Assembly: GCA_019054805.1 (NCBI GenBank)
Contig: JAHQIY010000013.1
Coordinates: forward strand, 1,426,001-1,490,000
Direction of reading: 5' to 3'
Length of the DNA: 64,000 nucleotides
Source of the DNA: Brachionus manjavacas
Taxonomy: Eukaryota > Rotifera > Eurotatoria > Ploima > Brachionidae
The position numbers and the translations under genes are program-made. Below the pieces are notes generated by a model. That model saw only the letters and a list, made by a program, of their open reading frames with translations. It ran no database searches and was not told the origin of the DNA. Shown here one piece after another: positions 3,786-41,400 of this stretch (position 1 is the stretch's first letter; each line of letters begins with the position of its first letter).

Positions 3786-4393
3786 ATTTTACAGGCTAAA
3801 AAAACCAATGGGAGCTAATCCACACAGTCTTCTGAATTAGAGTCTGTATTTTTAGTTAGTAAATCAGAGTTTGACTAAAATCCTCTGTGATATCAATAGT
3901 TTGAAGATTATACGCCGAAGTTACTCTTCTTTCGACAACATTAAGTCTTAAACTTGTCACGTAACATGATTAGTTGTTCAAAAGAATATTTTCTCTGCGT
4001 TGATTGTTTCTGGTAAGTTTAGTAATAAATCAATTGCATTTCAACTGAATACTGCTTCAGCTTCGTTTGCCTTTGCTGTAGATGAGGTAATTTTCTTTTT
4101 TTCATATTTTTGTCATTGAATACATCAATAATAAATATAATATCAAATTTCTTAAATGTTTTTGCTGAATTTGTTTCTGCTTCAGTTGTTGTCGTTGAAT
4201 CTCAATTCGAGTCTCTTCCAACTCATGTTTTTTTTGTAAATAAGCTTTTAAATCTTGCTTATTCATCGCTTTTGCCTCATCTAAGGATATAACTAGACGT
4301 CTTATGATTTCTTCTTCATATGATTAGATTCGGTGACGTCATCATACCCTCTGTTACTAGATCGGAGTGACCATTATTGATTGGGTTACTCAT
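3786..4393 (-). pseudogene. Degenerate coiled-coil ORF, probably a mobile-element relic
   Basis: The minus strand opens with MSNPINNGHSDLVTEG (ATG at 4393). A one-base shift then leads into a Lys/Gln/Glu-rich helical stretch (DLKAYLQKKHELEETR, then QRQQLKQKQIQQK), interrupted again further on. The composition and the coiled coil look like a gag-like or transposon-encoded protein, but I cannot name a family. Several stops and shifts make it non-functional as read. Confidence 0.35.
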
Positions 4394-4590
4394 CGTTCTT
4401 TTTCGAGCTCGTAAAGGCTATGTCTCTTTTGATCATGATTAATAATTCCCATTAATCTAATTCAAGAGTTTTAGCAAATAGGCTTATTTTCAATTAAGTG
4501 TTTGGAACGTAAGAATTCATATTATTATATGTAATACCAATTACATGCTTAAATTCGAAATTTTTTTCCTAACCTTAACAAGAACATATA

Positions 4591-4598
4591 CTCAACTG
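4591..4598. repeat. Target-site duplication, left copy (CTCAACTG)
   Basis: The same 8 bp, CTCAACTG, recur at 5536-5543 immediately outside the inverted-repeat element. An 8-bp duplication is the signature of hAT-superfamily insertion. Confidence 0.8.
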
Positions 4599-5535
4599 CA
4601 GACTTGTTTTTAAGTCACAGTTTTAAGTCAAAGTATGACATAAAAATTTTTTATTTTTTTTAAAGTCAAGTCAATGACTTAAAATTTTTTTTTTAGAAAA
4701 AGGCTAAGTAAAGCCGGTCAGCTTGACGGTCAAAATTTTGGACCGTTTAAAAAATCGGTAAAAAATAAGTGGGCAGTCAAAGATACGGTCAACATTGTGG
4801 CGGGCGGTCATTTAGCCGTTCAAGCTTTGCGGCTAGAGTTTTGGACTGCCGCGCTGAAAAAAAGAGGTTAAAATATCAAAAAAAATTAAAAAGTTAATAT
4901 AATTAAATATGTTTATTAATTAACAACAACCACTAACAACAATACTACTACTACTTTACTATTTTTATAACTACTACTACTACTTTACTACTATTATAAC
5001 TACTTATACTTTACTTACACTACTTCTACTACTTTAAAGAAGTTTACTAGTAGGAGTAATAGTAGTATTGTTGTTAGTGGTTGTTGTTGGCCGTTGACCG
5101 TTGATAGTTGTTGGTAGTGATTGGAAGTTGGTTGTTGGAAGAAAGTCGTATGTAGTTTGGGGTTGTTGGTAGCGGGTGATTGTTGGCCGTTTGTATTTTT
5201 TTTATTTTATTTTTAATTAAATTATGGGTTTTTTTTTTTAATTAATAAACATATTTAATTATATTAACTTTTTAATTTTTTTTTGATATTTTAACCTCTT
5301 TTTTTCAGCGCGGCAGTCCAAAACTCTGGCGCCAAGCTGAACGGCTAAATGACCGCCCGCCACAATGTTGACCGTATCTTTGACTGCCCGCTTATTTTTT
5401 ACCGATTTTTTAAACGGTCCAAAATTTTGACCGTCAAGCTGACCGGCTTTACTTAGCCTTTTTCTAAAAAAAAAAATTTAAGTCAAGTCATTCGACTTGA
5501 CTTGACTTAAGACTTGTGACTTAAAAACAACACTG
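4599..5535. mobile_element. 937-bp palindromic hAT-like non-autonomous element
   Basis: The ends are terminal inverted repeats beginning CAGACTTG (left) and CAGTGTTG (right, complement), both followed by TTTTTAAGTCAC. Inside, about 225 bp at 4697-4922 are repeated inverted at 5232-5468 with only a few differences (shared blocks include GCGGGCGGTCATTTAGCCGTTC and GGACTGCCGCGCTGAA on the left-arm strand). The centre carries a second inverted repeat of CAACAACCACTAACAAC and a run of ACT triplets. The element is flanked by the 8-bp direct repeat CTCAACTG. There is no transposase ORF, so it must have been mobilised in trans. The CAG-type ends and 8-bp duplication point to hAT. It is GC-richer than its surroundings. 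Confidence 0.85.
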
Positions 5536-13022: not shown

Positions 13023-18500
<5,478 letters not shown>

Positions 18501-18765
18501 AATTTTTTCCTCACTCAAATTAAAATCATGTTTTAAAGAATGTTTGGCTAAAATAATGAAATACCCTCAGTCACCCAATTATGGCAGATTTTTAATCAGG
18601 TATAATTCAATATGTCTATCACTGTCTATCAAATAAACCATCCGACTTTATATCTCTCTTTGGATATTTTATTCTAAAAATATTTATTCATAATATTATT
18701 CATTAAAACTGCACATTTTTTTTGTTATAAAAAATTAACTCAAATAAAATTTAATATTTAGCTTA
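18501..18765. repeat. 265-bp direct repeat, copy A
   Basis: This is identical to 19649-19913 over 265 bp except for one base (T at 18751, G at 19899). It begins AATTTTTTCCTCACTC and ends TATTTAGCTTA. The copies exactly flank the truncated retroelement at 18766-19648. The repeat is noncoding. Confidence 0.9.
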
Positions 18766-19648
18766 TTATTATTATTATTATAAGTTAATCTGCAACGGGT
18801 TTTAAACCGCGGAGCTAGGTACCTCAAGTACATGGCTATGGCAGATAAGTAGTGTGATTTAACAACAAGTTTTAAATATGAATTCAAGAAATGAAAAATA
18901 AAGATAAAATTAAAAGTGTTAGTTTGATTTGAAATCATCATATCTATTTTTAAATGCGTTCACTGTTGGTGCACTCGTAACTTCTGGTGGTAGCTCATTC
19001 CATAGGGGTACTGTTCTATTGGAAAAGAAGTTGTCTCTAGGTGAGCAGTTTTTAACAAATTGCCTGTATAGTCTCTTCCGTGATAATCTGGTTGAGCCAG
19101 CAGGTCCCATGTTTTCAGATGCAGGTACATTGGCTATTGGATGATACCAACATACTTGATTAAAGTTGTTTTTGAATTTGTAGAGTTGGATGATGTCCCC
19201 TCTTTCCCTCCTTTCTTCTAATGTCGTCAGGTTAAGTGATGCTAATGTCTCTTGATATGATTTGTTTCTTAGTTGCGGAACACTCTTAGTAGCTCTTCTT
19301 TGGACCTTTTCGAGGAGCTTAATGTCTTGTTTTTTATGAGGGTTCCATGCTGGAGCAGCATACTCGAGTAATGGGCGAATATGTGATGTGTATAAAATTT
19401 TGAATGTTTGCACATTCCATTTAGTAAACGATCTTTTGAGTCTACCCAAGACATTATTTGCTTTTAAAGTGACATTCTTAATGTGATCGTCCCATTTGAG
19501 ATTATCTTTCAGTATTATGCCGAGGTCTCTTTCAGTCGATGTGTTTGTGAGGACATATGTGTTCTGTTTCGAATTATCATCTGCTTCAAACGTGTACTCA
19601 CGGTTTCGATGGATAAAAAATCGTATTATTAATATTATTAGTATTATA
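18766..19648 (-). mobile_element. 5'-truncated non-LTR retrotransposon with RT C-terminal ORF
   Basis: The minus-strand frame (stop at 18919) is open across the element and encodes the C-terminal part of a non-LTR reverse transcriptase. Motifs: STERDLGIILKDNLKWDDH, SHIRPLLEYAAPAWNPH, LLEKVQRRATKSVPQL, LTTLEERRERGDIIQLYK and FFSNRTVPLWNELPPEV. The catalytic box and endonuclease are missing, so the copy is 5'-truncated at about 19648. The 3' UTR ends in a (TAA)n tail abutting copy A (TTATTATTATTATTA at 18764-18780 on the plus strand), as in L2/CR1/Jockey-type elements. The ORF is uninterrupted, so the insertion looks recent. Its first dozen residues come from the flanking repeat. It lies between 265-bp direct repeats. 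Confidence 0.85.
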
Positions 19649-19913
19649 AATTTTTTCCTCACTCAAATTAAAATCATGTTTTAAAGAATGTTTGGCTAAA
19701 ATAATGAAATACCCTCAGTCACCCAATTATGGCAGATTTTTAATCAGGTATAATTCAATATGTCTATCACTGTCTATCAAATAAACCATCCGACTTTATA
19801 TCTCTCTTTGGATATTTTATTCTAAAAATATTTATTCATAATATTATTCATTAAAACTGCACATTTTTTTTGTTATAAAAAATTAACTCAAATAAAATGT
19901 AATATTTAGCTTA
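19649..19913. repeat. 265-bp direct repeat, copy B
   Basis: Second copy of the 265-bp repeat at 18501-18765 (one mismatch), on the 5' side of the retroelement. The near-identity implies recent origin, concurrent with or just after insertion. Confidence 0.9.
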
Positions 19914-34839: not shown

Positions 34840-37800
34840 CTAATTAATAAGCTTGTTACATCTTCGATTTAAAAATCGTTTAACTCGTTTGAAATTTTTT
34901 AGTTTCCATTCTCTTATTTCGAAATTTTTTTGTACAACCCAGTCTTCATTAAATTTTATCATAGAGTCTGAATTTAAATAATTTTTTGAAAATAATGAAG
35001 CAAAATCGAATGATAATTTTTTACTTGTTAAATATTTCATTAAATCTTGACTGTTAATTATAATCAAAAAATTCTTATTAGGAATGATTTTTGGGCAACT
35101 ACAATTTAAATAATCTTGATCAAAATAAAGTGATATTTCCATATTTTTTTTAAATGACATGTCGATTTCAATATTTGCTTTTAACACGCTGAGAATTTTT
35201 GCAGAGAATTTTTTTAATTCTCTCTTTGAGTTTAATAAGTTAGAATTTTTAAATTCATCATTAATGGTTTCGCCTGCACTGGTGATTTTCAACACGATCA
35301 CTAAGATATTTTATTTTAGAAAAAAAATTCACTTTTTTTACTCTTTCTAAAAATTACCTAGATCTGATTTACACAAATCCAATATTTTTAATTTTTTTGA
35401 TTTCATTTTACAATATTCACACCTTTTTTCAAATCTTAAGGATTTCAAGTATGAATTTTGATCAGCTATGCTATTCTTCTTATCATATGTCATAGATAAT
35501 GATGTAGTGGTTGAAGATGGGATGGTAAGGAATTTTCTGAATTCTATATAAAATTAAAAAAAAATATGGTTTAAAAATGTTTAATTTAAAATACCTATAC
35601 AAGGAATGATTGCTGAATTTGTTTGTAAAAAACCTTTCTTACAGCGATCACACTTTAATCCCGCAACTCCTACTTTGCATGGACATTGGCCTGTATTTTG
35701 GTTGCAAACTTTTCCTGATGATCCGATCATATGGCAACTGCATTCTTTTAGACAAGTTTTAATAGTAAATTGACAAATGAGTTGGTAGTTAAATTGTAAT
35801 TTAAGGTAATATCTGTTTAAAAGTTTTTACCTTGACACGCTTTATTATCTGACATGGAATAAGCGAAATTTCTGTAGTATCCTTGCGCACAATAGTGACA
35901 AAATCTTCCTGCTGTGTTATGCTTACAATTAATGCATACTCCTCCACTTTTGCGACCAGAGAGGAGATAAAGTTCTTTATTAAAGCGACATTGATTTGAA
36001 TGATTGTTACAATTACAAGCTATTTATTTTTAAATTATAATCTTTTCAAGAAATAAATTTTCCGTTTTCAAAACAACAATTTTAAGCTATTGATTATAAA
36101 AACACTGGACTATCACTGAACCTGCCGAATTTGAATGAAACTACTATTGATTAAATTAAAGGATTTTTTTTGTTTTTTTTTTTCAATTATCGTTTGATTA
36201 AAAAAAAATTATTGGCATGAATTAAACCTTTCATTTCTTTTTAGAAAAAATTTAAAAAATAAAAAATTTCTAACCCAATTTTTCTGTTTAAAAACGAATT
36301 AGATTTATCAAAAACTATTCGCGGTTTAAAAGTTTTGTCTCAAAAATTGAAAATAATTTTTAGTCTTTCAAATTGTTGTTTTATAAAATTACTGAAAGGT
36401 ACTTACTGACACATTCATTCGCATCTCGTGTAGTGCCTCGAGCCCATGGCCTATCATAATGAAATGGTAGACATCTTTCACATTCTATTCCAGCTGTATT
36501 ATGTTTGCAATCACATTGATATTTTCCATCTCTTAAAGCAAAATTGTTTTCAATAGAATTTTTGAATTTATTTTCTTTTTTAAGATGACATAAAAACGAT
36601 GTCAAAATACATAATCTTGTTTTTAATTTACATATCAATAAATTTAATGATTTAAATTCAAAAAGTACTCATAAGCTAAATTAAACAATTAAAGAAAGTT
36701 CCATCATTGAATTTCAGAAAAAAAAATCGAAAAAATACCGTTCCAAAGAAAATTACAAACAAAAATTTGAAAAAAAGCGAAAAGAAGGCTCTAAATACCA
36801 TATAAATAGAAAATTATTTTTTGTAAGTGTTTCATTGATAAAATATAATTTTTGCTTGTTTTCATCCATCAATTCCTTTTAAAGCTTCCACTTTATTTAA
36901 AAAAATTTTTTTTAAGCTCATAAAATGAACGAAAATCCTTCTTTTTTAATTAAAAACGATCAAACTGAATAAAGAAATCAATATTGGAATCTGATTTGAA
37001 TTGATTGTTAGTGAATATATATTTCAAATATTAATTCTGAGATATCCAGGATTGAACAAAAATGAAAGATTTTTTATATTTTTTCATTTTTCAATAAAAT
37101 TAAAAAAAAAAAATGCGGATTTTTTTGAAATTTCTGAAATTATGAAATAAATATCGCTAGCTATTGCACTAAAAGAATTCTATATTTTCTAATTTTTCAA
37201 GGGAATTTCAATATATTTTTCATTTTCTGATTTATTATTTGATTAAAATATTATTTTATTACCTTAGATCGCTAAATAATGATTCATTAAAGTAGAATTT
37301 AAGTGTAATTTCTTTAATGCGATCTTAAACAGCAGATTGTTTTTGTTTGAGTTAAATTTAAAACACTTAAGTGTACTTATATTTTGTCTAAGAATTGTAA
37401 GCTACTTGAATAAATCCTCGAATGCATTCAACAATTAAAACAATAAAAATATTTTTGTGTAAAAAAAAATCAAATGTTTTGATATTCAAAATTATTATTT
37501 AAAAAATAAAAACCTGTTTAAAATGCAGCGCGATGCATGACCATTACATTTACATCTTCCGCCTATGGCTACTTCCGAAACAGCCGTGTAGAAATATCCT
37601 AAATTATTTATTTGACTGAAAAGTTCTCTTGATTGTTTATTTCTCTGGCTTTTAGGTCTATATTGGGATTCATTAACTAAATTATGATGTAAATTTTTAT
37701 TTAATGAAGGCGATAAAAGTCGAGTGAACACAATTTTTATATCGGTAGCAGTGACCCAATCGTGTAATACAGGACTTTTGTCAAAATCATGAAACGATGG

Positions 37801-38478
37801 ACGCCCATCTAAAGTACTGAAACCAATTCGATTTAAATTGTATTTTGATGACATTAAATGACTATCTGAGCAGATTGCTTCTTGTTCATTAGACTGCGTA
37901 ACTTTAGCTCTTAATGGTCGGTTGTATACTTTCTGGCACTCGCTAGAATAATATTGAAATGGAATCCATGTCTTTCCATGATCCATACTTTTGAAAATTG
38001 CTAAAGAATCTGGCTTTAATTGTGTACAAAATTCTAGACTGATGTATGTTAATTCATACTTTTTACCAAAAGAAATTATAACTGATAAATTTGAAATTTC
38101 ATATGGTTCATAAACTGGAGCCGAAACCCAACATGTCTGATTTGTTCGCTCTAAATCGGTTAGATGAAAAGCATTGGGCACAAATGGTTCGTTTTTGGAA
38201 TCACATATCGAGCAATGCATCCTTGACATTGTAGACTTTTGATGAAAATTGTTTGACTGGATGCAATATTTTACGGGAGGTGAGCCACATGTTGATGACA
38301 CAATCGGTATCTTTTTGAATGCAACATTTTCAAAATTAGGAATGCATCGCTTTGCCTGTCTAGTTATACTATCATAGCAAGGATCTGATTCTTCGAAAGA
38401 TCTTGATATGGCATATTTTTCGTAGGAATTAGTTAACAAATTTAGGTTCATAAAAACTAGAAACACAATTAAGATCAT
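34840..38478 (-). CDS. netrin: Netrin (laminin-N, LE repeats, NTR domain)
   Basis: Netrin is a secreted axon-guidance and cell-migration ligand for DCC/UNC5-type receptors. Six exons (minus): 38478-37514, 36531-36407, 36019-35831, 35744-35595, 35543-35358 and 35300-34840. They sum to 2076 bp, 691 residues, exactly in frame. Order: signal peptide ([18 protein letters not shown]), laminin N-terminal domain ([12 protein letters not shown] ... [18 protein letters not shown] ... [13 protein letters not shown]), then three laminin-EGF repeats with [46 protein letters not shown] and [15 protein letters not shown]. The C-terminal NTR/netrin module shows [20 protein letters not shown] and a basic tail ([13 protein letters not shown]). 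Intron 1 is 982 bp; the others are 50-390 bp. The linker before NTR and the NTR domain itself are more divergent than the LE repeats. TTTATT at 34741 (AATAAA on the minus strand) is a plausible poly(A) signal. Confidence 0.94.
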
Positions 38479-41400
38479 GCTTTTTATTCAATACAGATAT
38501 TGAATATTTTTTTTCTCAGTTAAATTGTTCAAAATATCTATAAATAGTAGAAAAAAAAAACTAGATGAAAAATTAAAACATAAAACTTCAGGATAATAGT
38601 CATAAAAAAACAAACACAACAAAAAAATTATTTTTCTTTCAAATATAGATCTATTCTGAATAAAATAGGGATTTGATTAAAAAAATAAAAAGGCGTGCTC
38701 AGGTAAATTACCCAATTGAATTGTCTAAAATTTCTCAGAAATCTATAAATACATTCAGTCTCTCAAATAAGCCATAACCTGAATTCAATCTCTATCATTT
38801 AAATCTACCGAAGGGCCTTAACAAGTGTCAATTAATTAGAAATCTTTCAATATTTTAAATGTCCAATATTGAAAAATTAATTTCAAATTTCGGGTTTTAC
38901 CTGTCTTTGTTTTGATTGATAGATTAATTAATTTTTAATTGTTCTTGTGTTCTGTTTTTGGTATTCTATAAAATTTATTAAAAATCTAATATATTCTATA
39001 TATTCAACGATTTCAAAAACGAATCATACAATTTAATTGAAAAATAAATTTTTGAATGATATATAATTTAATAAGAAAATGACAAAAATTAATTAATATT
39101 TTTATTTATTACTAGCAATAAAAGAGTTTCGTAAGAAAATCTCAATATAAGACGATTTAATTTTTTTAAATGACACTCAAATTTTTAAATATGATTTTTA
39201 TTAAAATTGAAAAATGAAAATTGAAACCTTATTTTCATAGAAAGAAAATTTATTTGGTGATCTCAAATTTAAACGTATTAGATATCGATAACTTATCCGC
39301 ATATGATCGTTAAAAAAATTAATAAATAATTTTTTTCAATCTAATTATAATCACTATAATATTTAATAAATATATTCATTGGTTTTGACTTGTTTTTAAT
39401 TCTTATAAAATTCGTTTATCTCCTTGGAACCATTCTAATAACTTTTGTTTAAAATATTTAATATAAATCCTAGATATAAAAAACGAAAGAAATTAAAAAA
39501 TTAATCAATATATTTGTTTTGATGAAATTGATTTTTATAAATGAAAAATTAAGATTTTGAAAAGCAAATGAGCATTTTAAATCCATGGAAAATCTTAAAA
39601 TTCGAACCGAAACTAAAATTAAATGAAAATTAATTTGTTTAAAAGATTAAATTTAAAATTGCATATCAATTTTTATGCTTATTTTCTATTTTTGATGCTA
39701 ATCTTAATTTTATTTATTAAACTAAGAAACCATAAACTGTAAATAATTTGACACTTATTAATTTTTTATCCAAATTTCTCAGATGCTTAATTTATTTTCT
39801 AATTACTTTTTGATATTTTTTTATTTAAATATTCCAAAAGTTTAGAATGATTATTTCAGAACTGCTTTAAAAATTAAATTAAAAAGAAAAATTCTTTTTA
39901 AAGAAAAAAAGAATTGAAATTTCTTTTAAAGAGTAAATTTAGTTAAATCAAACTAAATGTTTTTATATATATTTTTTGTTTTCATTTTAACTTTGTCTTA
40001 TGATCAAAGAAAGATTAATATATTACACTCAGAATAAAAAATCTGCAATATATATGTCAAAGTCTGATGACATATTTCTTGAAACTAATCCTTTTATCCT
40101 AGTTATTTATAAATTTCGAATGGCTAATTTTTTTTTCTGATGATAATCCCGTTTCTAAATGAGAATACGTTTTATTTCAAAACTTAAAATGCAAAAGTCT
40201 ACTTGTAAGAAATTAGTATTTTTCTGGCAAAAATACGAGTGAATTTTAATTTTCACACTTAAACAGAAATTAAAATCTTTTTGAAAATTTAGATTAATGT
40301 TTGAATAAAAAAGATTTAAAGTCCTAGTATATTTACAAATACAGCGAACATCTAGCAATAAAAAAATATTTTGTATAAATGAATTTACAGGAAACATAGA
40401 TTCAAATATTTGATACTAATTTAAGAGCTATTTTAATAATAATTTTTTCTAACTTATTTAATTCATAAAAATTCAAATAAACAACCTTAGAGATTTTAAT
40501 AAATATTCTAATAGACTATGCATTTCAAAACAAATAAAAATATTTTTTCCTTTATCACTAAAAATATTATTTTTGATTTTACTTTGTAAAAAAAAGTATT
40601 AGTAATCCTAGATTTTTGTTCAAATAAATTTCTAATTTGATTTATAAAAATTAGATTTTCCTAGTATTCTATTTAAACCTCTTTTTCTCTATTCTTTTTA
40701 AATCGTCTTAATTTTTTAATTGACATTTTTTAGTGATTTAAATACCGTTTTGATTGCTTATTTATTTTTTATTAAAATAATAATAAGTGTCGTTAAATAA
40801 CTCAATCATATTTTTAGCTGTCGCTTTAAACAAAGATGATTACTAAGAGATTAAATAGAATCCTTGAATATTTTTTATCATCTGTCTTTATTTCAAGATC
40901 TTTTTGAGTTCTTTTTCAAATAACTATTCGGCATTTTGGAAATCGAAAATTTCAAGCCCAATTCATTTCAACTAATAATCTATCATTGATTTATTTATCT
41001 AAGAAAAAATTTAGAATATCGACTGATTAATTTATCTTTTTTAAATCTATATTTAGAATTTTGTCATTTTTTTTTGTACAAAGAGGGCAACATTTTTCTT
41101 TAAAATAACTTTTATGATATGAATAGAAAGCAGAAATAGAAAGAGAATTAAAAAAATTATTTCAACGGCTTAAAAATTTTTACCATCTTGCTTTTTCTAT
41201 TTTGTAAAAGAATCACATTTTGTATTCTTTTAAAAAGACTGATTAACATTTTTTTCAGTTTAATTTTTTATTCACAAAATAGATTATTTAAATCACAAGT
41301 TACACACTTCACAATAAAACTTTTGTTTAGAATTTAAAAATTAAATTTTTAATAATCTATTATGCTATTTTAATTTAAAGAATAATATTAAATTTTCATT

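Follow-up and report, generated by a model that had tools for sequence, protein, structure and literature searches.

A very probable 265-bp target-site duplication around a 5'-truncated LINE in the rotifer Brachionus manjavacas

The window analysed here, a stretch of 64,000 nucleotides of the B. manjavacas genome, lies on C13 of an assembly of 114 Mb in 61 contigs. It contains a 5'-truncated LINE placed between two copies of a direct repeat, together with a netrin-like exon and a separate open reading frame (Table 1). The element retains a part of an ORF whose protein was found by eye to be equal to the end of the 647-aa ORF of a longer copy of the same family, L038; no Pfam match was obtained for this part. 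The TTA shared by the tail and the target would fit priming of reverse transcription at this position.

Table 1. Positions of the features in the window
Feature	Position	Strand	Remark
ORF	13880..15172	-	end presumably part of a homeodomain
Left copy of target-site duplication (very probable)	18501..18765	.	alignment extendable to 18496
(TAA)n 3' tail	18763..18781	-	read from the sequence; outermost TTA also in the duplicated target
5'-truncated LINE, ~849 bp of the family's 3' end	18766..19614	-	family of 25 genomic copies
C-terminal part of reverse-transcriptase ORF	18919..19614	-	ORF without the RT domain, which is lost by the truncation
TAA-rich filler, 34 bp	19615..19648	.	fills the gap from the 5' truncation point to the right repeat
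Right copy of target-site duplication (very probable)	19649..19913	.	alignment extendable to 19643
Netrin-like exon	37495..38487	-	PF00055; several relatives named netrin

A repeat search of the window detected the 265-nt direct repeat with 264 of 265 bases equal and one substitution, as the sequence-only reading of this DNA had reported. The identity was also confirmed by blastn with free edges, which aligned 18496-18765 with 19643-19913 (269/271, one gap and one substitution), and comparison of the two flanks gave an E value of 4.6e-138. The sole substitution between the 265-bp copies is T/G and is located close to their right end. When the 265-bp unit was searched against the 114-Mb genome, passing over simple repeats, only a 35-bp stretch on C7 was detected besides the two copies in the window. 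The same earlier reading had stated that the repeats exactly flank the element. This holds on the tail side, where the left repeat adjoins the (TTA)n tail and the adjacent TTA is common to both repeat copies. It needs correction on the truncation side, because the TAA-rich filler separates the truncation point from the right repeat and the edge is thus off by 28-34 bp.

The match of the element to its family stops at 19614, and the filler beyond this point was unlike the element sequence at the corresponding place in copy L034. The filler resembled the element's own tail over 17 nt at 94%, a weak match (E 0.007), and a search for its source, covering the reference copy and 6 kb of sequence surrounding the locus, gave only weak TAA-rich similarity to tails. 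At the other end of the element, the last ~80 bp (window 18779-18862) were ~80-84% conserved in comparison with sister families on C22, C8, C9, C33, C20 and C10, and the next ~150 bp showed hardly any match to them. The motif ATCTGC was present in six of the seven aligned rows of this segment and GCAGAT in all seven. The segment may correspond to the RNA end that the reverse transcriptase recognises; folding of the 3' end gave z = -1.38, with 15 of 200 shuffled sequences as good.

A search with the whole element identified 25 family copies in the genome, 97-100% identical to the window copy, two matches on C7 being counted as one copy. A 147-bp query from the 3' end hit 31 places, all 31 first-look candidates being scored. 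Of these, 24 matched over 137-147 bases with 98-100% identity and six over 63-70 bases with 79-83% identity, and the rearranged copy L012 matched over 51 bases with 98% identity. The 24 places and L012 were the same 25 copies as those found by the whole-element search. The copies share a 3' end with its tail (at least 137 of the 147 query bases in 24 of the 25) and are raggedly truncated at the 5' side, the 22 copies with an assigned 5' end starting between reference positions 2953 and 4736.

The 647-aa ORF of L038 matched the reverse-transcriptase domain RVT_1 (E 4.4e-34). Endonuclease matches of APE type, spread over two ORF pieces, were obtained in the same copy for Exo_endo_phos above the cut-off (E 4.7e-8) and for Exo_endo_phos_2 just below it (26.9 bits versus 27.4). 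The solved structure scoring highest with the reverse-transcriptase ORF was human LINE-1 ORF2p, and the best structures were mostly LINE-1 ORF2p, followed by R2. Most of the best 120 of 7077 protein relatives were unnamed, and named animals were few, namely Brachionus calyciflorus and Hydra vulgaris. With a reverse-transcriptase domain, an APE-like endonuclease domain, and a 3' tail combined with varied 5' truncation, the family is, judged from its sequence, an APE-type LINE, possibly CR1/L2-like.

Several further properties of the family and its relatives were observed. The 5' ends of seven of the 22 copies (L022-L025 and L027-L029) fall within 27 bp, at reference positions 4710-4736 and 161-187 bp from the 3' end, an arrangement reached in ~0.1% of draws from a smooth exponential null; this is perhaps a strong stop for reverse transcription. 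The longest copy, L038 (C6:1510500-1520499), carries an insertion of ~840 bp at 4162-5004 of the reverse strand, of which at least three other genomic copies exist at 97-98%. Reverse-transcriptase frames of related LINEs were located on the same strand ~4-17 kb apart (G000:C2:8966390 and 8970454; C30:438574, 444273 and 461538), spaced as if they formed local clusters or had been duplicated locally.

The 5' and 3' flanks of each of the 25 copies were compared with each other, with 600 mispaired flanks as controls. The window copy scored 262, and 599 of the 600 controls scored 15 or less; the single exception, at 101, combined L013 (5' flank) with L017 (3' flank) and is due to a dispersed repeat common to both. 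A second copy, at C18:394879-395637, showed a direct repeat of ~166 bp reaching both junctions (score 160, two differences). This repeat adjoins the tail and the 5' truncation point, is unrelated to that of the window, and matches its own locus only. Long duplications (~265 and ~166 bp) are therefore present in two of the 25 copies, both exceeding all 600 controls, including that at 101.

A long flanking repeat was found in none of the other 23 copies, either by the flank comparison or by a scan for direct repeats (blastn E 1e-15 or better, at least 50 bp, at least 88%, within 8 kb), the latter being the basis for L038 and L040, whose 5' ends are uncertain. The scan, which covered 324 kb with overlapping loci counted, detected only the window and C18 pairs and one 63-bp low-complexity pair at 89%, and no direct repeat at 14 loci with more distant relatives (L030-L033 and L044-L053). 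The next best true flank pairs scored 15 and 14, values equalled or beaten by two and four of the 600 controls. The latter belonged to L011. A similarity between the flanks of L022 (35 bp at 80%, with a 15-base core equalled or beaten by two of 600 controls) was marginal and was rejected, as it does not reach the element and shows more divergence than a copy of ~99% identity should have. Short matches directly at the junctions were analysed in 22 copies, L038, L039 and L040 being left out for their unclear junctions. At least 6 bp were shared in seven of the 20 copies without a long duplication, the longest match being 8 bp, compared with 5.4% of 462 controls, and the mean match was 5.0 bp in true pairs versus 3.6 bp in controls. 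Some short duplications thus exist in the family, single cases being indistinguishable from chance.

The sequence-only reading had proposed that the flanking duplications of the genomic copies be measured, and this yielded two long duplications in 25, each locus-specific and ending at the tail and at, or close to, the 5' junction. Only short duplications at the other copies, a result which that reading had counted against itself, occurred in part: 23 copies have no long one, but the C18 copy has ~166 bp. The 23 copies limit the frequency of long duplications rather than the explanation.

If the 265-bp stretches were terminal repeats of the mobile element itself, LTR- or Penelope-like, they would also be direct repeats flanking it, as is seen. 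Each repeat, however, matches its own locus only, apart from the 35 bp on C7, although the family has 25 copies, and the domains, the tail and the ragged 5' truncation mark the element as a LINE. LTR or Penelope-like membership was rejected as terminal repeats are not shared between copies, and this origin has a practically negligible probability.

A CTA-tailed LINE family was used for comparison; a TTCATA-tailed family was also noted in the genome. From the best 40 places (549 candidates), the first 21 were taken, and 10 of these were measurable, with the 5' end at the full-length place. A long abutting duplication was present in none of the 10 within ~450 bp of each flank, three of the 10 having an uncertain 5' boundary. 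The proportions of 0/10 in the CTA-tailed family and 2/25 in the TAA family were statistically indistinguishable (Fisher P = 1). One CTA-tailed copy, L058 (C8:2591500-2600499), is inserted within a satellite of ~525 bp, whose undisturbed monomers serve as a built-in empty site; the duplication there was ~3 bp, as determined by eye.

The C8 copy demonstrates that LINEs do enter tandem arrays in this genome, which bears on the idea that the 265-bp unit had been duplicated in tandem beforehand and that the LINE landed exactly at the boundary of the two copies. The C8 array, however, continues for several monomers on both sides, unlike the window site, where the unit has just two copies; a tandem-array target was rejected at this site for that reason. 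In the window, neither repeat edge is more than 34 bp away from an element end. The boundary coincidence would be needed twice in 25 copies (C13 and C18), and comparable direct repeats are otherwise absent from the 324 kb scanned. We regard a pre-existing tandem duplication as very improbable.

An assembly artefact, in which haplotypes with and without the insertion were joined in series, would account for the single mismatch as an allelic difference, as judged from the assembly rather than from reads. A false join, however, is not expected to put the edges at the tail and the truncation point, and the identical pattern at two unrelated loci also speaks against it. The structure spans ~1.4 kb, and the assembly has 61 contigs over 114 Mb, so that reads long enough to build it probably span it. 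Such a misjoin is scarcely credible.

The divergence between the repeat copies was compared with that of the elements. The window element had 3/831 private substitutions, and the C18 element 3/741. Repeats of the same age as the insertions would be expected to differ at 1.9 and 1.3 positions, respectively, and one (1/265) and two (2/166) differences were observed, in a test of little power. In the same alignment, L041 and L040 showed 53/281 and 23/757 mismatches, which were put down to internal rearrangement and not to age.

The repeats fit the element ends, tail and truncation point, a second independent case exists, and the ages match. We therefore consider that the window repeats are a long target-site duplication arising from target-primed reverse transcription of the LINE, with a probability of about 0.92. 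The basis is one assembly and two cases, and the filler beside the right-hand repeat and the 23 copies lacking a long duplication, one of them with an apparent target deletion, count against this reading. The exceptionally long target-site duplication suspected in the sequence-only reading is supported by the C18 case, the locus-specific repeats, their edges at or near the element ends, and differences fitting the age.

Junctions of other copies showed that insertion in this family can be untidy. L017 (C1:467900-468341) lies inside the dispersed repeat that is also found beside L013 (89% over 291 bp on the 3' side and 73% over 326 bp on the 5' side). In the best 40 of 677 candidate copies of this repeat, which include L013's own stretch, the sequence is uninterrupted at the L017 site, none of the 40 covering fewer than 245 of the 261 query bases. 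By eye, L017 lacks ~59 bp at the insertion point relative to L013, with ~18 TAA-rich bases in their place. As far as these alignments tell, the L017 insertion probably deleted ~60 bp of the target without a duplication. At the 5' junction of L039, near 7072 in the element sense, a filler was seen by eye to repeat the initial ~15 bases of the element copy, which suggests template jumps or error-prone joining in the family.

Under the preferred reading of a long target-site duplication, the LINE RNA would have been inserted by target-primed reverse transcription. The endonuclease would have nicked the + strand after ...AGCTTA (18765), and the 3' end at the nick would have primed on the (UAA)n tail. 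Synthesis of the cDNA would have stopped after ~849 nt, with 34 nt of TAA-rich filler added at its end, possibly through a jump to, or slipping on, the TAA tail. The other strand would have been broken ~265 nt away (166 nt at C18) instead of the usual few nucleotides, giving long 3' overhangs at both ends, whose fill-in would leave two copies of the 265-bp target. The distant second break may have come from the element endonuclease, a pre-existing nick, or repair.

A variant of this scheme keeps the same insertion event and ascribes the duplication to repair, a break at the cDNA end being healed by copying or re-joining neighbouring DNA; it belongs within the preferred explanation, and the confidences overlap. 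The 34-bp filler at the window junction is in its favour, as are the L039 filler resembling the element's 5' end and the TAA-rich bases beside the ~60-bp target loss of L017, by which untidy joining occurs in the family. The repeat edges, on the other hand, are clean, as simple fill-in predicts, and the final sequence cannot tell repair from a staggered second nick. Repair is a possible route, held at well below even odds. A broader proposal is that, in this family or this host, the distance of the second-strand break from the first nick is only loosely controlled and may lie to either side of it, so that outcomes would range from the loss of ~60 bp of target to duplications of 166 and 265 bp; we consider this generalisation rather doubtful.

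Known systems were compared with the window case. The R9/R2 group has a restriction-like endonuclease and uses a single rDNA site with a fixed stagger, and R9 is reportedly, to go by the title of its paper, specific to rDNA. According to the portions of the reports used here, R9 belongs to the R2-A clade and makes a 126-bp stagger (PMC3581529, PMC6895275), and modest duplications of 10-20 bp are general for LINEs with APE endonucleases (PMC6895275). The window duplication is like that of the rotifer R9 in exceeding 100 bp, the parallel drawn in the sequence-only reading. Unlike R9, as far as the same portions describe it, the TAA family carries an APE-type endonuclease domain, and its insertions are dispersed and vary in outcome, so that R9 is not the best parallel and ZfL2-2 and L1 are closer precedents. 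Membership of R9/R2 was rejected on the APE-type endonuclease matches, the varying outcomes, and the flanks of the family copies, which were unlike each other by eye.

In the consulted sections on the zebrafish LINE ZfL2-2 in chicken DT40 cells, one of 25 wild-type insertions carried a 1228-bp duplication, and a model was presented by which second-strand cleavage, depending on where it falls, leads to duplication, blunt joining or truncation (PMC2666801). The TAA family resembles ZfL2-2, as described there, in its 5'-truncated insertions, mostly short target changes and rare long duplication (PMC2666801). The ZfL2-2 events of those sections were fresh insertions in cultured cells, whereas the rotifer copies are natural and were surveyed over the whole genome, with 2/25. 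For human L1, the extracts of PMC5223499 at hand state that duplications above 100 bp never made up more than 10% of HeLa events, and report them in 4/7, 21/23 and 22/28 events in three lines deficient in nucleotide-excision repair and in 3/9 in complemented cells. The same extracts suggest, as speculation, a distal unrelated nick for the long L1 duplications (PMC5223499). Human L1 has a poly(A) tail and the TAA family a (TAA)n tail; on these extracts, both have duplications above 100 bp. Given the ZfL2-2 value of 1/25 and the L1 values of up to 10% of HeLa events in these sources, 2/25 falls within the known range.

The window case is supported as one of two natural examples found here of an outcome of LINE insertion that is rare but already described in print. 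Among the literature matches listed, no title reported on the TAA-tailed family, which is not proof of absence. Long duplications are hereby shown in natural insertions and not in cultured cells alone, which overturns nothing. If the second break were indeed loosely controlled, LINE insertion in this genome would steadily give rise to small duplications and deletions under natural conditions. Second-strand cutting and copying by LINEs is described in the available part of PMC6895275 as a poorly understood step, and this small young family, with its short, absent and very long duplications and a probable deletion, provides a natural record of the variability of that step.
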